Program-made: the position numbers and the translations under genes
Shown: positions 4,892 to 51,343 of the stretch, piece after piece
Layout: every line of letters starts with the position of its first letter
How positions within the stretch are numbered: position 1 is the stretch's first letter
The notes under the pieces: generated by a model
Seen by the model: the letters and a program-made list of their open reading frames with translations, nothing else
Databases searched by the model: none
What the model was told of the DNA's origin: nothing
Origin: Panorpa germanica
Taxonomy: Eukaryota > Arthropoda > Insecta > Mecoptera > Panorpidae
Assembly (NCBI GenBank): GCA_963678705.1
Contig: OY783203.1
Coordinates: 42,160,347 to 42,224,346, forward strand
Reading direction: 5' to 3'
Length of the DNA: 64,000 nucleotides

Positions 4892-32234
<27,343 letters not shown>

Positions 32235-32439
32235 TTTAAAGGATTCAAAAGAATCAAACTGTCAACTTATATTCAACTTTCAATTTCACACAAAATATTG
32301 ACAGAAATATTTAAAATGAAATAAACTATCACATTTATTATGTTAAACTATTAAATAGTTTATTAAACAACACATAGCATGTATTTAAATTAATTATTTA
32401 TGTATTAATATTGACTATTATTATTGTTGTTAGATGTAC

Positions 32440-36876: not shown

Positions 36877-38035
36877 TTAGTTGACAAGATAACTGATCCC
36901 AAGACGCTGTGGTTTTCTAACCGAGCGGCCCTTCCTGGTACGTCCTATAACAATGCCGCTTTTGTTCATTAAGCGAGAACTCCTGCGAGTGGGCTTCTTG
37001 CGCCTCTTGCGCCTACGCTTCTGACGCCTAGGAGTTGGGAAAATAGCTTCTGCCAACGATCGAAGGTATCTGGGGTTTGGATTTCCAAAGTAAAATATCG
37101 CTGAAAAACATGTTTATTTATTTATATATCATTTATAGTCAAAATCACGATAGTTCGGTGGCGACTTATACTTGAAAGGTTATAAGAGCGGTATAAATCA
37201 AAAATACGATAATGAATTTTATCTTATTCGTTTCTATATACATTATAGAAAAATCAGTGAGTCAGTGCTTTTTAGTTATATTGGCAGTTTATACTCCACA
37301 ATTTGTTTTAAGTATGAGTCGCTTTGAACTCTCCTAATTTGAACTATATGCTACATAAATCAATGTACTTCCGATTGTACTCATTTAAGCTTTTAATTTT
37401 TAACGTAAGTATGAGTAATATATAAGGATAAGGCCCCTATTTTGTAACGGTTTTCCAACGTCGTTTAACATTAGATGGTTTACAACTGTAGGGTCTTTAC
37501 AACAAGACGGTCATTTTATCGATATTTCAACAAGAGCGGTCATTTTAAACCAGTAGAAAAACGCAATATTTCAATGATACTTGGCAGATATAGTGTTTCA
37601 ATATTAACCTCAGAGTTTGTACTTTAGATTAAAATAAATATATCACCACTTTTCATGGGAATATTTCCTTTTTCTATTGATTTAAAATGACCACCCTTGT
37701 TGAAACATCCATAAAATGACCGCTCTGTTGAAAGACTATATATAAGTGCGAACAACCAATCTCTTTCACGTAATAATTTAATTCGCAACAGTAAAAAATA
37801 ATAGCTGATGCCTACAAGTTTATTTGAATGTGCGTCAATGCAGTTTGCTAAATTTAGCAACACTTGCTAATAATATGCGCGCTTTATGGATACTTAGCTC
37901 GAGACTCTTCAAACATGGTAAAATGTTCTCAACATGTTCTAAGACCTGGTCAGTTAATGTGATGTATACTTGTCCTATGCGTAACTTACCAAGACAATCC
38001 TCGAGCCCACATGGACAAATCCCGGTTGTTATCAT
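36877..38035 (-). CDS. small basic protein, novel CxC/GR-box family, paralog 1 (89 aa)
   Basis: Two exons: 38,035-37,990 (46 nt) and 37,100-36,877 (224 nt), joined in phase 1 across an 889-nt intron (donor CTTG|GTAAGT, acceptor TTTTTCAG). Exon 1 encodes MITTGICPCGLEDCL, with C-x-C-x4-C. Exon 2 opens IFYFGNPNPRYLRSLAEAIF, then a run of Arg/Lys (RRQKRRRKRRKKP), RRSSRLM, and the C-terminal box GRTRKGRSVRKPQRLG. The ATG is placed by homology with the two paralogs and by an acceptor (TTTGCCTTTAG) four nt before it, implying an upstream untranslated exon. The protein is small and very basic, so probably nuclear or nucleic-acid binding (inference). AATAAA on the minus strand near 36,771-36,780. Family unknown to me. 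Confidence 0.72.
37151..37346. mobile_element. mariner-like MITE (family M1), copy 2
   Basis: Lies in the intron of paralog 1. The right end CCTAATTTGAACTA and the left TAGTTC..GGTGGCGACTTATACTTGA pair as inverted ends; the left arm has lost about 12 nt relative to the copy at 52,155. Confidence 0.6.
37505..37730. repeat. inverted repeat inside the paralog 1 intron
   Basis: Arms of about 45 nt: GGTCATTTTATCGATATTTC..AACAAGAGCGGTCATTTTAA at 37,508-37,548 and its inverse at 37,681-37,730. They could form a hairpin in the pre-mRNA or be a small MITE. Confidence 0.5.
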
Positions 38036-39445
38036 TTTGCTAAAGGCAAACAAGACATTTTTTTATTTTAATGCACAATATTTGCTTATAATAGATATCA
38101 ACTTATCTGTTAAATGTTTAATTAAAAATGATCTAATTGTGGGAACAATCAACCACATATGTATTTAATAATCAAATTTCATTGACTCACTAACGGAAAT
38201 ATGTACTAAAATATATTGAAAACCTAACCAAAAATAAAATTGCACCACAATTTAAGATTGTTGCAAAATTTGTAATTAATCAAAAAACGAAACAACAAAA
38301 ACACAAATTATTTTGTATGTAAGGAACAATGCTAAGAATTATTTCATGAACGTATAATAATCTTTTCGAAAAAGACACGTTAGTTTAAAAATCATTATTT
38401 TTTGTCAAAGTTTATTTCTATTAAAGATTTAATTATATTTTATTGAAACGTTATATTTACCTGATTCTATTTTTCGCGTTTAATGGAGTTTAAAATGATA
38501 GAAAGATAAAATTCTCTAAAATTACTGTAATAAAATTTAAAAAATCAATCCTTTATCACAAATAACCATATGGAAAATATATTTTCTTATTCTTTAATTT
38601 TTTGTTTCACTTATTTAAAACATAAATTTTATTTTTTTGTTCTTTGAAACAAAAATAAATTGAAATATTTTATTTTAATTATTTTGAAGGGTTTCTATGA
38701 ATAAAATGTAAGTTTTAATGAATTAACCAAAAAAAGCGTGTTTTCGATAATGCACAGTTAGACACAGTTATTATATAATTATTTCTACAATTACTACATG
38801 ATAAAATATCATTCAAAGAATACTTTGTGAAATTTTCATAAATAAATATCAAGAAATGAGGCGAATCTCCGCAGTCGTCACAAAAAAAAGTAACATTGCG
38901 GTGCCACTCATAACTCATCAGTGTATTATCTGTAATCGAAAAACTTAAATGATTTCATTTGTTGATAAGTTTCTGCAGGTAACCCTGTCCAGTTTTTTTT
39001 TATTGATTTTTCAATTTTTTACAGCACTTAGAAGTCAAAATACCAATTTTTCATGAAAAGAATCAGAAACTTTGTTATTTTAAAATACATTAAAATTAAA
39101 AAAAAACTCAACAGCGCTACTTATATACAAAAAAGAGTATGCAAAATTTCAAAAGTTTCGATGCAGTAGATTTTGAGCTAGAGAGGGCACCGAAAAACGC
39201 GTTTTAAAGTTTTAAAGAAAGACGAAACCAGACCAGAGAGAAGACTTAAACCTCTATTTCTCCGACAGTTTTAGGAGATATTAACAATTAAAGAGATCCA
39301 ACGTTAAATATAATAAAAACGCCATTCTATCAAAAAATTTAAAAAACAACCCCTAAAAAAGAGTTCACAAGCCCATTGGAAAACGACCCTAAATATTACA
39401 TTTACATTAAAATTATAGGCGTATGATTTATGTTTTAGGATTGTG
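38036..39445. other. head-to-head intergenic region between paralogs 1 and 2
   Basis: 1.4 kb separates the two start codons. Both genes should begin with an untranslated exon somewhere here, judging from acceptors just before each ATG (38,039 and about 39,439). AT-rich; a stretch at about 38,990-39,370 resembles dispersed repeats. No promoter element was identified with confidence. Confidence 0.4.
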
Positions 39446-39825
39446 ATGGCCATTACGACTGGAAGTTGCTCTTGCGGCAGAGAGTTTTGCTTCTGTAAGT
39501 AAAACAGAACTCCTAGTAATAATATTTGTATTATCTTAATATCAATACAGTAAGCATTACTTTGGAACGGGGTGACAAACTGTTACACTATTTAAATATT
39601 TCAGCTAACTTCTATTGGAGTAACGAAAGATATATTAGACCGTTGCTGCGTTCTCTTTTCCCAAAGAGGTGCGTCTACAAAGTCAGGAAGCAGCGAAAGC
39701 CAAGGAAAGTGAAGAAGGCAATTCGCAGAAGCCGCCGTCTCATGGCTAAGAAAATGGCTCCTGTGGGGCAAACTAGAAGAGGGCGTCAAGTTAGAAAGCC
39801 AGCACGGTTAGGAGTTGAGAATTAA
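39446..39825 (+). CDS. small basic protein, novel CxC/GR-box family, paralog 2 (89 aa)
   Basis: Exons 39,446-39,494 (49 nt) and 39,605-39,825 (221 nt), phase-1 junction, 110-nt intron (donor TTCT|GTAAGT, acceptor ATATTTCAG). Exon 1 encodes MAITTGSCSCGREFCF, aligning with paralog 1 over ITTG-x-C-x-C-x4-C. Exon 2 reads SNFYWSNERYIRPLLRSLFP, then a basic block (KVRKQRKPRKVKKAI), RRSRRLM, and GQTRRGRQVRKPARLG. An acceptor (TATGTTTTAG) precedes the ATG by six nt. AATAAA occurs at about 39,902 and 39,918. The frame upstream of 39,605 in the same reading is intron, not coding. Function unknown; the charge suggests DNA or RNA binding. Confidence 0.74.
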
Positions 39826-39959
39826 TTATGATTAACATTTTAACATTTTTTATATCTAATAATAATGTAAAGTACATTGTATCGAATAATCTTAATTTCT
39901 AAATAAATTTTTATGAAATAAAATACTTAAAATATAAAACAATTTCTTATGTGATTATT

Positions 39960-40980
39960 TATAATTATTATTATTATTTAGTGATTATAACTAAAAAAAA
40001 TCGTTGCGACCTCGCACTCATACAATAACAATTATAATGTGATATAATAATATTTATTTATTAATAATCAATTACAATCGAATATGTAGTGTCAGGTCTC
40101 TTAACTTATCTGTATGTGTCGAACTTTTAATGCTGACCCTCCCAGTATTCTAAATCCAATGCCAAAACCCTAAGACACGCGTTTCGTGATCCATAAATCA
40201 CTACATCAGTCTTATAATGTATAGGCACCGCTGTTCCTCTACATGATGCCATTGTCAGGCCTGGGTTGAGTCACAGCGATGTAATGGGAGTATCCCACAC
40301 TGACTATTTTCAGTAGGCTGTTCTGGAGTTGGAAACTTGTTTAGAAGTTTCGATCCCAATAACCGTTGTTTTTACCAGCAAATATTTCGTAGCATCGCGC
40401 TAAATATATTGCGACTATTTCCTACAATTATATTCGCACTGTGAGATATACACTTCATTATATGAAGTCACATTGTTATAAAAAGTCCTAATATCAATAA
40501 AAGCACAGAAGCGGTATATTATAAAAATCATAATCAAATTACTGTAAGAGATAGACATTTCTAGCCCTGCATATAAGCTCTTCAAATATACCTTTAGATT
40601 TAGATATAGACGGTGCTTTATTATATAGTAATCTATATAAACTGTTCATTCTTAACACTAGGTAGTTCTCCCCCTTACCCCCTCCGGAACCATCGAGAAC
40701 ATGAGTCAAATTAAGTGAAAATTAAAAAAAAAATCATCTTATTCTTATTTTCTTTTGTATTTAATTTCAATTTAAATTAGTTAAATTATTAACTAATAGT
40801 GAAAAGATTATAAATGAATATTTATAAATCGAATATTTATAAATCTACAAATCGAATATCATCTTCGGGTTACCAGTTGTAGCTTTAAGGGCGAGCAATA
40901 TTTTTACAACTGGCCTTGTGAGTGTTTTGCCGAATGCCGTTACCATATATGCATGTAATAAACCACAAAGCACATGTGAA
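39960..40980. other. intergenic region with a GC-richer block
   Basis: About 40,085-40,400 is clearly less AT-rich than its surroundings and contains no long frame; it may be a decayed transposon. The rest is AT-rich. Confidence 0.35.
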
Positions 40981-40984
40981 CATT

Positions 40985-41138
40985 TATATGGTGCGATTTA
41001 TTCTTTTATTTTGGTAAGTCAAATATTTGTGTTTGTTGTTATTTTTATGTTTATTAATTAAGTATTCTTAACATTTCAGAAATATAATTGGTAAATTATT
41101 TAATAAATTTAACATTTTTACGAGAGAAACGAAATTGG
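40985..41138 (+). other. candidate untranslated exons of paralog 3
   Basis: Two good donors lie here: TATTTTG|GTAAGTCAA at about 41,014 and AAATTG|GTAAGTCAG at about 41,138. An acceptor, ACATTTCAG, falls between them at about 41,079. Together with the acceptor at 42,266 this fits a spliced 5' UTR for paralog 3. No open frame is conserved across them. Confidence 0.3.
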
Positions 41139-42017
41139 TAAGTCAGAAATTTTACATTTCTTACTTACTTTAAGATTGAATTGAAAATGCATGAAATTTC
41201 GTTTATATTAAATGATTATGTCCTTATAAATATTTGATCTAATGATCATTAACCGGTTAAAAGTCAGTATTTGTTCTAAATGGTTTAGTATGATCCATGT
41301 GCTACTTTGGTAGACCACACGAAGCAGCACAATTTAATTTTTCTTTATTTTCTTAATATATGTTTTAAATAGTACTTAGGTTAGAAGTGTAGGATAGTTC
41401 GCTTGCATTTTAATTAAAGTTAATATTAAAATATACGAAAAACAAGATTTTTTTGTTTTTTAATTTTGTTTCAAAATAATATTACCTTTTGTTTATATTT
41501 AAGTAATTAATAAGTTGGATCTTTTGTTTATATTTAGATAAATAATAGGTTGGATTAGTTAGTTGAAAGCAGCAGGTATCTTATTAGCAAAGTCAGCTAT
41601 TGATCCGAAAACCAAGTGTAAGTGGTTCAGGATATGGATCTCGCACAGCTCAATGTGGTTGTGATTACTATGTTTTTGTATCTAGATAAGTATCTTCATA
41701 ATCTGTATCTAGTCCTCCACTAATAGGAGGAGTGAGAATACTTAGATCGAAGTGCCCGAAATTGAATGGTATCTGTGATAAACTTACGTTGTATAGAATG
41801 GAATCTGAAAGATTCACTTGAAATTAGTATATAGACAAACAGAAATTTTCCAGTGTAGGAGCCCGTAACGTAATATATTATGGATACGAAATGTAACAAC
41901 AGTATACAAAAGTAAAATTTACGTAGAATATCTGAAACAAAAGATTTGAAACAAGTTCCTTATATCAACCAGTTACTTCCCGAACTTAATGTCCCTATTT
42001 TGTAACTGCGAACCTGG

Positions 42018-42198
42018 CTTCTGTTAACTTCTGACGATTTTTCAAAAGTGATATATTTTCTAAATTAGGGTATGTAGGTTTACCCAAAACTAACAAGAGA
42101 CCCTAAATAAAGAGTAAAATAGATCCCATACATTGGAGCATAAGTAGTCTAATTTAGAAAATATGGGACTTTGAAAAATCGTCAGCAGTTAACAGAAG
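42018..42198. mobile_element. palindromic MITE upstream of paralog 3
   Basis: About 50-nt inverted arms: CTTCTGTTAACTTCTGACGA..TTTTCTAAATTA and TAATTTAGAAAATATGGGAC..CAGTTAACAGAAG, with an 80-nt centre. It sits about 70 nt before the acceptor that precedes the start codon of paralog 3. Confidence 0.65.
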
Positions 42199-42276
42199 GG
42201 ATCTTTATTACAAATTACATTGCTACTTAACTTACTTATAAATAATTTATTAAAATGTTCTTATAGATCAATCGCG

Positions 42277-43996
42277 ATGACTATAACAATGGGGAGATGC
42301 CCATGCTCACCAAATACCTACTGTTTCTGTAAGTATCTTCTGTATTACAAGTAGAAAATAGTTTAGCAGTTAAAGGTTTACACTTGCTGGGTTACCTCAA
42401 GGTAATTAAACAATTATAGCGTTACATTTTCTACCTGGGATATGAAAATTTGTTTTATCTTTTAAAACTATATATAGAAAAATGCATGTTTGGAGCAAAC
42501 GTAAGAGATCCATTAACAATAATAAAAATCGATAATTATTAGTTACAATTTGGTTTTATGAAAAAGAGACAAATTTGTTGTTGAATATTACAACCTAATT
42601 CAGTGTAACTTATATATATTTTTAAAAAATTGTTCATATATTAAGAGCAAATTTTCATAATTGTTATATATTAACAATATCAATACATTTCTTTATTCAA
42701 ATTGGTAGGTAATGCTAGGATATTAAACGTAATCTTCCACGATAATTGTTACTGTTATGAAAATCCGTTCTAAAGAAGCAAAAATGAGCAAATGTGTAAC
42801 GTTTTTCCGACGCTATCTTACATTGACCCAAGAAATGTAATTCTGAAATTTATTCAGTACAGATAAACAATTTCTGTTATATCAACGAATTATTGCCGTA
42901 TTGCTCGTATAAACGATTCCAAGTTTCTACATTGCACAAATGTTAAACACGTCTGAAAAAAGTTACAACATTTTGGTCTTAGTGTGCTTTTAAGAGAAAG
43001 AGAAGAGAACAGATTATGCTGGAGTTTGAATATTTTGGCGAAGATTTTATTGCTGGTATGTACATGTTATTATCAATTCGTGCTGCTCAGGATATATACA
43101 GGTTTGCATATATTATGTTTTTGTGGATACGGCAATTAAAACAGGAATCCCTCAGAATATCAATTTGATATTTGTTTAAATCTTTTCTATAAAAAATGTG
43201 TAAGAAATATGATACCTTTCTGAATAATTTCTATATTTACTTATGTTATATTTTTAATAATAGCTACCAGAAAAGGAATTTGATAAGTACTAGTTTTGCT
43301 AGTTTCTGTCCCACCGGAATTAGTCCTACAGATTTGATGACAACTTTAATATGAGTGTTTCTTCGTTTTTTGACCCTGTGGTTGCGGTTGTTATGTTAAT
43401 GGATCTCAAAGGAAACTTCACTAAACAGAAAATATATATTCTGATTTTTATATACTCTTTATATAATTTGTAACAAAATATGGTAATTTAGAAAAGTAGG
43501 GTCGTATTAGTAGTAGAATACTATTCAGATTTTGTGCGTATGAACGATTTTAAATGTCCAATGATAAAGAATTTACAAATTTAAATATAACTTAAATTAC
43601 TCTAGTAAACAATATTCTACAAATTTGGATGCTTCGCTAAAATTTAAGTTAATCTAATCTATTCAGGCTAGCTAAAACAATTTATGTATTTCAGCTCAAT
43701 TTTACTTTGGAGACGTTCGATCAGTGAGAGCTCTTCTTCTAGAAGAACGTAGAAAATTTAGGGCACTGGCAGAGAAGAATAGGAAACAGCTTGAATATAA
43801 TAGGCGCCTAAATAATCTTAGAATAAAGAGACGTAATGCTCGGCTCTTTGGCACCAAAAAAAGGGGCGGTAAATCTCGTAGGGCCTCAAAACTCAAGAAT
43901 CCAGTGCGTAGAAGCAAACGCATTATGCAAAAGAAGTCTATCCAAGGCCATTCAAAAAGTGGTCGGCCAATTAGAGTGCCAGATCGGTTCCAATGA
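42277..43996 (+). CDS. small basic protein, novel CxC/GR-box family, paralog 3 (117 aa)
   Basis: Exons 42,277-42,328 (52 nt) and 43,695-43,996 (302 nt), phase-1 junction, 1,366-nt intron (donor TTCT|GTAAGTATC, acceptor GTATTTCAG). Exon 1 encodes MTITMGRCPCSPNTYCF, with C-x-C-x5-C. Exon 2 opens SQFYFGDVRSVRALL, matching the F-Y-[FW] start of the paralogs, then has an added charged helix (LEERRKFRALAEKNRKQLEY; a likely coiled coil) and an Arg/Lys-rich stretch, VRRSKRIM, and GHSKSGRPIRVPDRFQ. About 28 residues longer than the other two. An acceptor (TTCTTATAG) lies ten nt before the ATG. AATAAA near 44,268. It is the most diverged member. Confidence 0.74.
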
Positions 43997-46756: not shown

Positions 46757-49348
46757 ATGAGCGACGTAATTGATCTAACTAGTCCAACTACTTCAACTAC
46801 TCCAAGTCCTTTAATTTCTCCAAAAAAGAAAAAATTAAAGGCTCGTGCACCTCTACGATCTGACAATTGTAAGCTTAATCATTACGATCTGCATTAACAT
46901 ATTAACAAATGATACCTTAAACCTATTGGTTGATATGATATTATAAATAAATTGTAGGAATAATTTAATTATTAATATATTATCTGTTGTAGATGTACGA
47001 GGTGCCGGAAATGAAATGCTATCGCCCATAATTGATGAGGTGCCGAAGTTATCAATACTAAACATAGACGATATAAGTAGTCCGGTAAGTCAATTATCAA
47101 CTTGATTAGAATAGCTAAAATTCTCTATAATCTAAATGGAAGAGAGTTATAACATAGCCTTTTCGTACAAGATTTCTTGCATATTTATAAAGAAAAATAT
47201 ATATAATAATCGTACGATAGATAAAATTCCATTCCAGTATTACAGGCTTTTTATAGTAATCACCATTATATTTTTCTCAAAAAAACTCAAAAATAATGAT
47301 ATTTATAATAAATAAAATTATGAAAAATTGGTTTTAATTTTTAAGTTTTACTATATCTTTAATTCAGTATTTATATATTAGAAATATAACTATGATTGAA
47401 CTTTTTTGCGAGAAACATAACAGTGTAACTATCTTATTCGAATAAAAGTCATTACTAGTTTCCAAAGGTTACCAATTTTTGATCAGCAAATCGAATTGAA
47501 ATTGAATCTGTTCTGCCTATTCACAAAATTGAATTCATTTTAGTTGCTACAAATATAAAAGGTTGTTTCTTTTTGTTTTTATTTGAGTTTTCGTTGTAGT
47601 TATAGAATAAACACAAACTTGATAAAATTTGAGACACGCCATATATATATATCAATTCAATTATTTTTTATTTGAAGGATGAAATTCCTTCATCTTCAAG
47701 GTCACATTCGGATTCTGAACCAGACCGTTTTCGAGGACCACCTGAAGGTAAGGATTTCATTGTTTTATTGTGTAATCAATTTAAAGGTACATATCAGTAA
47801 TGAAGATACCATTTTTATGATCGCTTCAAGCTAAATTTTAGAACACATTCATGTTCGTATACTCTTATATAATTTATACATAGGGCCTTATATATCAGCG
47901 ATCTTATGTTACAGCGCTTTTATATTATATTTTGGAAGCTTGATTTAATTTACTTAATGTTATTTTACTTTGTTTCAGAAGTACTAAAAAACTATTGCAA
48001 CGATCTGAGAAAGGGAATGCTCGAAAAACGGAAAAATAGACGTAATTCCTTTTTATATATTTATCTTCTAGTTTATATAAATTTTGACGATAATCTCTAT
48101 TTTATTTAGTATTTAACAAATAATACAACTAAAAACAAAAGCAAATGTTTTAATGTCAGTGAGATGGCATTGGTTTCTTAAAGAGTAGTAACCGTTTTTT
48201 AAGAAAGTGGGCAAAGGGAACAACAAACAAATAGACTTAATTAGATAAAAAAATTCAATTACACGATTGTAGTTTTAGATTATTGTGTTCTGTTAGATTA
48301 ACCACATATTGGAGACAAGACAGTCTTTTGATCCTTATTTTGTATTTTGATCTTAAATACGTTGTAAAATAGGTTCCATATCTTGTGGTAAAGTTAAGTA
48401 AACTACTAGACAAAAAAAAAACGCAAAACGCAGACAACATTATTCTGAATTGATGACAAATGGTTATAAGTAAATATGAATTAAGTTTGTATTTAACTAC
48501 AAGCCAAATAACAATATAATTTTTTTAGAACATTTGCAACGGCAAATCCAGGAAATGGATGAAATGTTAGATGCACTGGATTACGAAGATCCTCCAGAGG
48601 TATGATATTGTTTTTAGTTAATATAGAGATAATCGCTTGTTAAAAAATTTCACGTTTTTCTATCGCCTACGCTTAATCTAGTGTATCGACTAAATTTCTG
48701 GAATGTATTTTATCGAAACGTTATTGATATTTTTGTTTTTCTAATTCCATTGTTTGGTTTTAGTTCCCTGAACAACAAGCACCATCACGCGATGATGACC
48801 CTGTTCCAGGAACATCGCGCTCTGGATTTTACGTATGCGAAACTGAACCACATATCCAAGGTGATTACATTCAATTATCTCGCAGCTACAAAATGTTATG
48901 TTAACTGGTATATATACTGATGATGTCTAAAAAAATAATATCTTTCACCTTAACCAATTACACCATTATTTATTTATTTAACGTCGGCCTGTTAACGACC
49001 ATCTCCTTATATGTTTGCAGATTTTGTGGTGTCATGGCCCTCATATATGTGGGCTACACCGTTACCTAATAAGTATATGATTATGTATATACATAATCAA
49101 TTAAACCTAATATCAATATTGATAACAATGTTTTCAATAGATTATACATTATACGTTATAGAATTTTAAATAAAAGAAAAAGTATATTTGACACCTTTTT
49201 AAAGAGCGCAATGTTAAATACATTTTTTTATCTGCGATTTAAACTATCTTAAATGAACTTTATAAATGATGCAAGAAAGTGAAACTCTGCTTCCATTATT
49301 ACTCGAAGTTCTTTTTCCCAATGTACCAAAAGGATATATAATTAAATA

Positions 49349-49380
<32 letters not shown>

Positions 49381-51343
49381 TGTTAATTGTTATATGCAAA
49401 TAGAAAATGTACCACACTAGCAAGTGTGAAACTTACATTGCAATACAGTTTCTATTTGAGAAATAGAAAATTAACCTTAAAATTAGCTTGTATGAATCTT
49501 GCACTGTAACTTATTAGTTATAATAACCTAATCACTTACATACATATATTTAATTTTTTCAGAAATTTTAAAACGTGATCCATCTCCTTTGCTGGAGAAA
49601 AACAATGCTTCAGTGCCTTTTAAAATTGATGTAAAGAATTTGCCAACAGAAAATGTCAACCAGGTATGTTGTTGTTGATGATCATTTTATTAAAATCGAT
49701 AATGTGTTAAGATAAAATTCTAGGTTAATAGCGAATGAATTAAATTTAATTGAAGAATTATTATTATTATATTTATTTGAGTGCATCAACTTTTAATAGG
49801 TATTAGCACTTAAACCCAGAAAATATAACTCTGGCCCGGGGATCGAACCTGAAGGCACAGTAGTTAGAGTCAAGCATAAATGCTCTCGCCTACTCCATCG
49901 TCAATTAAAGATTCTTCTTATTTCATAATATTATCTATGCTAATTAAGTAATAGGTGTTAAAACTATGACTTTCTTGATTCTTAAAATATTAATTCTATT
50001 GCGTATTTTTTTATTTTACTGAATATTAAAATTTAATTAAAAACTACTTTATTGAAATTTGGAAAAGGTAAACTTTGAGAAGGCTATTTATAATTTAAAA
50101 TTACAGTTTATTAAAAAATCAAATAAAAAATGGTACACACATAATTTGTTTTATTTATCGTCTTTTGTCTTTTATACCAAACGATAATTAATAATAATAT
50201 AAATAATGTATTTATTTCTTATTTCAGGTCAACGATAACGGAGAATTCACACAAGGTAAAAATTTAAACCAAGATAAACATAACTAGTTGTTAAAGTAAA
50301 CTATAAGAAAAGTTAAAAATATGCAAAGCTAATAAATGATGCAGAAAGTAAAACATATGACAAATGCTTTTAGACTTTGATATTAGGTTTTTGGGCCTAT
50401 GGATTCGTTCCCAGATATTTCTCTATATTTTCCAGTCAATTTTCTACAATTTATAATCGTAAATTTATCAGATATACATACAAGTATATAAGCACCATAA
50501 AAGCAACCAGATAGTCGTCAGATTGGTTATAGATAAATATAACATTAACCGATTTAAGAATCTAGTAATTTTTTATTAATACTGTTAACGTGAAAATATT
50601 ATAATTTATTGTAATGTAATGGCCAACTCAGGTAGAAAATTGTCGTGCAATTATAAGTTCACCATAGGGTAACTTGCCACAAACTAATTCCAAAAATAAC
50701 GGTGTTCGGTAAATATAGTATATTACTTAATTGGAAAATTTTAATTTTAAATTAAGTATAAATTAAACAGTTTCATTAAAACAGTAATTAAATTATTTAA
50801 ATATTTCAAACCACGTTTTAGACGAAATAATTAACGAAGAGGAAGCTATCCCAGAGACTCCTGCTAGAGTCTCACTCACAAAGTCGGACGAGTCCGAGTC
50901 AGACGTAACTTCTGTAAGTAAACAAGTTCAATTAAAGGCGTAATTATGATATGATTTAATTGATTGCTTCTACCGATTTTCAGAATTTTCCGATTGGGTC
51001 TGATCGTGAACCGGCACCACGAGATTCAGATATTGAAATAAGAGTTAGCAGGTATGGGAGGCCTTTAATTCAAGCAGAGAGGTATAGGGCTGAGGATGCC
51101 AGGACCAGGGCCAAGATAAATGTTGTCAATTCTAATAGAACTCAAAGTCGTCGCAGTAATACGACGCAACAGAATTTGCCAAAGAAGCCGAAAAGGAAGA
51201 CGCAGAAGCCGAAAAGGAAGACGCAAATCAGACGCAACCAACAGCAAGTGGTCCAAGAAATTCCCAATGAGGTCGTAAAATTTTCCAGATATGGAAGAGA
51301 AATAAAGCCTGTTCTTAGGTACGGAATCAATTATGGTTATTAA
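46757..51343 (+). CDS. ten-exon gene: SIM-like N-terminus, coiled coil, twin SRYGR basic tail (361 aa)
   Basis: Exons: 46757-46868, 46993-47084, 47678-47747, 47979-48041, 48529-48599, 48764-48860, 49563-49663, 50228-50255, 50822-50913, 50984-51343. Every junction is GT-AG and in frame (phases 1,0,1,1,0,1,0,1,0), 362 codons with stop. Residues 2-8 (SDVIDLT) form a classic SUMO-interaction-type motif, followed by Thr/Ser/Pro and a Lys cluster (PKKKKLKAR) that could be a nuclear signal. Exons 4-5 give a charged probable coiled coil (EVLKNYCNDLRKGMLEKRKN; HLQRQIQEMDEMLDALDYED). The middle is acidic and Ser-rich. The last exon is basic. The ATG directly follows an acceptor (ATTTCAG), so an untranslated exon precedes it. 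Likely a nuclear scaffold (inference); family not recognised. Confidence 0.72.
48970..49120 (-). repeat. SINE body copy in intron 6 of the ten-exon gene
   Basis: TTATTTAACGTCGGCCTGTT..TGGTGTCATGGCCC..ATATATGTGGGCTACACCG..CATAATCAATTAA matches the SINE body; the head is missing. Confidence 0.65.
49343..49370. repeat. short TA microsatellite
   Basis: About 28 nt of (TA)n followed by a T run, in intron 6 of the ten-exon gene. Confidence 0.7.
49806..49912 (-). repeat. SINE head copy in intron 7 of the ten-exon gene
   Basis: AAACCCAGAAAATATAACTC..CCGGGGATCGAACCTGAAGG..GCTCTCGCCTACTCC: tRNA-like head with an intact B box (GGTTCGATCC on the minus strand). Confidence 0.72.
50984..51343 (+). CDS. 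ten-exon gene, terminal basic exon
   Basis: 119 residues with two copies of an SRYGR box: SRYGRPLIQAERYR near its start and SRYGREIKPVLRYG at its end. Between them lie an Arg/Asn/Gln-rich linker and a tandem PKRKTQKPKRKTQ. The S-R-x-G-R-x-[IL]-x-x-x-x-R-[YLF] pattern resembles the C-terminal box of the three small paralogs 7-14 kb upstream. The exon starts after CGATTTTCAG in phase 0; the stop is at 51,341-51,343. Confidence 0.78.
   Translation, partial: NFPIGSDREPAPRDSDIEIRVSRYGRPLIQAERYRAEDARTRAKINVVNSNRTQSRRSNTTQQNLPKKPKRKTQKPKRKTQIRRNQQQVVQEIPNEVVKFSRYGREIKPVLRYGINYGY

Follow-up and report, generated by a model that had tools for sequence, protein, structure and literature searches.

Small, highly charged animal proteins with cysteines are best known for their role in packaging sperm chromatin. 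Insect sperm packaging proteins have been reported from few orders, and their divergence between species is so great that similarity searches are frequently unsuccessful, sequences known from one species being of little help in finding those of another (PMC12216123). Here we describe three genes, A, B and C (the trio), in a 64,000-nucleotide stretch of DNA of the scorpionfly Panorpa germanica (the window), which lie almost certainly on the X chromosome and may encode sperm nuclear basic proteins (SNBPs). Among described systems, the hymenopteran protamine-like SNBPs Nv-PL1 and Nv-PL2 are like the trio products in being very basic, with a disordered basic region and, in an Nv-PL1 peptide, cysteines (PMC13148410); cysteine is reported in Nasonia SNBPs by two studies (PMC13148410, PMC12216123). 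Unlike the trio proteins, which have 89-117 amino acids and no Pfam domain, Nv-PL1 is described as 216 amino acids long with an N-terminal winged-helix-like domain, and both Nasonia genes are given as single copy (PMC13148410) as against three copies here. The HMG-box SNBPs of Drosophila (ProtA/B and others) are also basic and duplicated, but the trio has no HMG box and its copies are old. Canonical arginine-rich protamines are similar in size and charge, and some contain cysteines; however, arginine is reported to make up as much as 80% of their residues (PMC13148410), compared with 19% in the trio.

Three paralogous two-exon genes

We spliced the three genes by script from the sequence, gene A on the minus strand and genes B and C on the plus strand, and each coding sequence ran in whole codons to a stop. 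All splice sites were of one type, with the donor GTAAGT and an acceptor ending in TTCAG. An earlier note on this DNA had proposed three two-exon genes here, interrupted in phase 1 and encoding 89, 89 and 117 amino acids, and splicing confirmed every one of these features (Table 1). Short exons running from an ATG to a donor site and encoding two or more cysteines were also sought throughout the window; of the seven rows obtained, four were the trio (gene C appearing twice, from two in-frame ATGs), and the remaining three lay elsewhere in the window and were without the first-exon signature.

The genes are alike in both exons, and the position and phase of the intron are common to all three, as expected of the paralogous cluster that the note had claimed. 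Its view that chance was very unlikely agreed with residue shuffles, Markov windows and codon tests. Alignment scores of the first exons were equalled in 0 (A-B), 5 (A-C) and 0 (B-C) of 5000 residue shuffles, and those of the second exons in none of 5000 for any pair. At the DNA level, the signature of the first exon, M-(x)-I-T-x-G-x-C-x-C, occurred three times in the window, as against no occurrence in 200 first-order Markov windows, and was not found in 80 kb of flanking sequence. Genes A, B and C are thus confirmed as a real paralogous family with shared sequence in both exons. Gene C, although its similarity to A and B is significant by shuffling, resembles them only weakly: in a local tblastn search of 144 kb, A and B matched each other at E 4e-14, and query C reached neither of them at E<=1. 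Further weak matches in this search had E values of 0.040 (B), 0.047 (C) and 0.13 (D, a neighbouring gene described below).

Table 1. Positions of the genes in the window, numbered from its first nucleotide
Feature	Position	Strand	Remarks
Gene A, coding exon 1	38035-37990 (37990..38035), 46 nt	-	encodes MITTGICPCGLEDCL; ends in phase 1
Gene A, intron	37989-37101	-	between both coding exons
Gene A, exon 2 including stop	37100-36877 (36877..37100)	-	protein of 89 amino acids, isoelectric point 11.86
Gene B, coding exon 1	39446-39494, 49 nt	+	encodes MAITTGSCSCGREFCF; ends in phase 1
Gene B, intron	39495-39604	+	between both coding exons
Gene B, exon 2 including stop	39605-39825	+	protein of 89 amino acids, isoelectric point 11.76
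Gene C, coding exon 1	42277-42328, 52 nt	+	encodes MTITMGRCPCSPNTYCF; ends in phase 1
Gene C, intron	42329-43694	+	between both coding exons
Gene C, exon 2 including stop	43695-43996	+	protein of 117 amino acids, isoelectric point 11.86
Gene D, exons	46757-46868, 46993-47084, 50228-50255, 50822-50913, 50984-51343	+	possible relative; 227 amino acids; splice sites by eye and script
Zasp-like gene	4892-11795 and 32052-32261	-	left of the trio; very long intron or alternative promoter

Selection and age of the family

In codon alignments built on the protein sequences, the proportion of nonsynonymous differences (pN) between pairs of the three genes was 0.35-0.38 and that of synonymous differences (pS) 0.76-0.85; on a three-way alignment pS was 0.73-0.87. 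When the codon order of one partner was shuffled and the pair realigned, mean pN rose to 0.58-0.59, and none of 500 shuffles gave a value as low as that observed in any of the three pairs. Mean pS of the shuffled pairs was 0.79-0.82, similar to the observed values. Synonymous sites are therefore saturated, and the duplications that gave rise to the trio are therefore old. The excess of changes at third positions was equalled in 0, 1 and 0 of 500 shuffles for the three pairs. The low pN and the codon tests therefore support A, B and C as real coding genes by sequence alone, although the alignments followed the proteins, and the conserved parts of the proteins have long been held by purifying selection. 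The rapid divergence suggested in the earlier note applies to the linkers, which differ greatly; it does not extend to the motifs, which are under purifying selection, and the duplications are old. That the three are chance reading frames or decayed genes is contradicted by the shuffle, simulation and codon tests, as well as by the G+C content of the coding sequences (0.42-0.49, against 0.22-0.31 in introns and flanks), and is scarcely credible.

Features of the encoded proteins

The three proteins share a constant order of elements. An N-terminal cysteine module, C-x-C-x(4,5)-C, is followed by the aromatic pair in F-Y-[FW], a variable basic middle that is much longer in C than in A and B, the motif RRS-x-R-[LI]-M and, after 18-19 residues, GRx[VI]RxPxR[LF] near the end. 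Arginine makes up 18.8-19.1% of the residues and arginine plus lysine 27-30%; net charge is +20.5 to +28.6. With 89, 89 and 117 residues and isoelectric points of 11.76-11.86, the proteins are small and basic in the sense of the Nasonia study, which set the isoelectric point at 8 or above, and their composition agrees with the basic, nucleic-acid-binding-like character noted earlier. A structural model of B exon 2, built from this sequence and those of the two paralogues (three sequences in all), had a predicted local distance difference test score (pLDDT) of 65.9 and a predicted template modelling score (pTM) of 0.19, with two short helices, and from this low-confidence model we infer that the proteins are largely disordered.

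The G-R core among basic residues in the trio is also a feature of the AT-hook and other short Arg-Gly-Arg nuclear motifs; however, GRx[VI]RxPxR[LF] differs from the AT-hook core, and the trio gave no Pfam match. A presumed likeness of RRS-x-R to CENP-C, which would suggest binding to the acidic patch of the nucleosome, was considered; a literature query on it came back empty.

Searches for relatives

The second exons of B and C served as queries for whole-genome searches in which only the best candidates were scored, so that the counts are lower bounds. With B, all three candidates at E<=10 lay in the cluster, namely B itself, A (E 2.3e-8, 48%) and C (E 9.18, 41%). With C, the search returned C itself and one stretch on C15 (E 2.46, 20% identity) inside a 774-amino-acid frame, which was taken as a chance match. 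Neither query revealed a convincing fourth member, although one as distant as C could escape, because B barely reaches C and C reaches neither A nor B.

These searches bear on whether A, B and C could be domesticated fragments of a mobile element or a virus. MITE-like (miniature inverted-repeat transposable element-like) hairpins occur within the intron of A and next to C, and the basic tail of the trio proteins presumably resembles the arginine-rich C-termini of retroelement Pol proteins. However, the many dispersed copies typical of a transposon were not found with the B and C queries: the copies are few and local, exon 2 of B finds A, B and C alone, and exon 2 of C adds to itself only the match just described. 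The transposon match that the note had named as a reason to abandon the family was thus not encountered. In viral contigs, none of 364 pattern matches was confirmed, and the spliced frames are under selection in all three genes, which makes such an origin very improbable. A tblastn search of phages with gene C gave no match, which is of little meaning.

Pfam searches at E<=1 and at E<=10 placed none of A, B and C in a family, and neither Rfam nor a tRNA scan gave a match in the window. A profile search of the PDB returned three rows, two snake muscarinic toxins (E 0.11 and 0.68) and an unrelated protein (E 1.3), which were dismissed as chance. A database of 5.8 billion proteins yielded 140 candidates, none at E<=1; a shortened alignment without the variable middle yielded 97, none at E<=10. 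The same database returned insects for the neighbouring Zasp-like gene, with 136 of 138 candidates at E<=0.001, and is therefore not blind to insects, although diverged relatives could be concealed by its word filter, by its size and by tiny genes left unannotated. The combination of features thus matched no family in the libraries searched, in keeping with what the note had stated.

Size and charge by themselves, together with the cysteines, would also suit a basic protein of another compartment, whether ribosome-associated, mitochondrial or a cationic antimicrobial peptide. We consider this unlikely, given the lack of a Pfam match up to E 10, a best PDB match (E 0.11) taken as chance, and first exons that, by eye, have no hydrophobic signal-peptide stretch.

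A possible role in sperm chromatin

We tentatively read the products of A, B and C as small proteins that bind DNA in the nucleus, and most likely as protamine-like SNBPs, and give this somewhat less than an even chance. It is preferred because their size, charge and cysteines suit sperm packaging and because insect SNBPs often elude similarity searches. The products of three old tandem paralogues on the X would then be small, strongly basic and largely disordered, and would contact nucleic acid via two arginine motifs, RRS-x-R-[LI]-M and G-R-x-[VI]-R-x-P-x-R-[LF]; the cysteines of the C-x-C-x(4,5)-C module could form disulfide cross-links or bind metal.

Several points weigh against a role in sperm. 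Arginine, at about 19%, does not dominate the composition as it does in canonical protamines, and Pfam at E<=10 found neither a winged-helix (H1-type) domain nor an HMG box in any of the three proteins. The trio is old and under purifying selection, unlike the sex-linked amplifications of SNBP genes in Drosophila, most of which are young. Our comparison covers the canonical, hymenopteran and Drosophila proteins, peptides of cricket, cicada, fishfly and Tribolium having also been published (PMC12216123). The nuclear location, DNA binding, testis expression and role of the cysteines are what we infer. On the X of the related P. cognata, ovary-specific genes are reported to be enriched (5.34% vs 2.09%; PMC10715201). 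In a literature collection with subscription journals and preprints mostly outside its scope, no paper paired Panorpa with protamine or Mecoptera with sperm nuclear basic protein.

The ovary enrichment on the P. cognata X supports a different reading, that A, B and C are small chromatin or transcription cofactors of ovary, embryo or soma, with a C-terminal nuclear motif in common with gene D. Because ovary-specific genes, and not testis-specific ones, are over-represented there, a role in the ovary has to be kept in view. The motifs of the trio are conserved beyond mere basic composition, and the alignment score of the C-terminus of gene D was equalled in 1 of 2000 shuffles against A and in 6 of 2000 against B. 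The protein of gene D begins with MSDVIDLTSP and contains two SRYGR-x-[LI/I]-type motifs ending in RY, a basic block and a KPKRKTQ tandem repeat; its VIDLT we take to be a SUMO-interacting-like motif. However, the match of D to C was not significant (116 of 2000 shuffles), tblastn of A, B and C in the 144 kb did not reach gene D at E<=1, and gene D as read has no cysteine exon. A cofactor role is accordingly doubtful, though far from negligible. To judge from the alignments, gene D may be a relative of the trio, and a C-terminal nuclear motif common to D and A/B, by descent or by convergence, is plausible. Read as an open frame, the last exon of D gave Ribosomal_L36e (E 0.057, 14.1 bits, below the cut-off of 27); the spliced protein had no Pfam match at E<=10 and a single PDB row, titin, at E 0.46.

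In the P. germanica genome, the X measures 47.99 Mb and the next chromosome 30.64 Mb (PMC11464959). The window occupies 42160347-42224346 of contig C21, whose 47,989,005 bases equal the published longest scaffold exactly, and it is this agreement in length that places the trio on the X. The study of P. cognata reports finding no Y, consistent with an XX/X0 system, and gives 7.54% of X-linked genes as testis-specific, not significantly different from autosomes (PMC10715201). Of 20 SNBP amplifications described in Drosophila, 16 are on sex chromosomes and most are less than 10 million years old, and the ancestrally retained SNBP genes are placed on autosomes in D. melanogaster and most species (PMC9917458). 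A meiotic-drive reading was not adopted, as the trio copies are old and few and most Drosophila amplifications young; drive of X against Y would not apply as such, because P. cognata showed no Y. It is conceivable, if improbable, that a hitherto unknown, cysteine-bearing class of DNA-packaging proteins was born in scorpionflies from the C-terminal nuclear motif shared with gene D, replaced or joined older sperm proteins, and has long persisted as three X-linked genes in a lineage with X0 males. Since half of the sperm of such males lack an X, the products would then need to be synthesised premeiotically or to pass between spermatids, and they could label X-bearing sperm or give them an advantage. 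An X-linked candidate family of three two-exon genes in Mecoptera, which the P. cognata paper calls a sister order of Diptera (PMC10715201), would, if truly of SNBPs, provide a handle on the origin of these proteins and on whether their sex linkage needs conflict between X and Y, as no Y was found in P. cognata.

Neighbouring genes and other features

To the left of the trio lies a Zasp-like gene. Its exon at 10410-11441 matches insects, the named rows including Gryllus, Timema, Diploptera, beetles and Hymenoptera, and it has a DUF4749-like stretch at 9801-10304, below the Pfam cut-off. Likeness to the start of a Gryllus protein makes 32052-32261 its probable first coding exon, and a 1004-amino-acid acidic, serine-rich open frame at 4892-7906 probably belongs to it as well. 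On the opposite strand, probably within its intron, an intact frame of 372 amino acids (15281-16399, plus strand) had no Pfam match above the cut-off. Upstream neighbours on the X are an emp24/gp25L family gene (L007:1712-2269, plus strand; Pfam E 2.3e-38), a Yip1-like frame below the cut-off (L007:4666-5413, minus strand) and a CCCH zinc-finger gene (L007:7485-8258, plus strand; 30 bits against a cut-off of 29), the last presumably makorin-like. A frame of 294 amino acids at L011:5198-6079 (minus strand) appeared PDZ-like by eye and matched no Pfam family at E<=0.01.

Acceptor-like YAG trinucleotides occur 4, 7 and 10 nt 5' of the ATG in A, B and C, and at 0 nt in gene D. The threshold for such sites was passed by A and B and by 121 of 2341 ATGs overall (5.2%), with C one pyrimidine short, a mere hint that 5' non-coding exons precede the three start codons. 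Downstream of every stop there are poly(A)-like signals, which are common in similarly AT-rich DNA. The MITE-like hairpin in the intron of gene A (37497-37733) consists of two 88-nt arms that are 81% complementary. The second, also MITE-like, lies just upstream of gene C (42018-42198), with 29-nt arms 97% and 30-nt arms 83% complementary, and resembles, by eye, stretches near 37430 and 42790.

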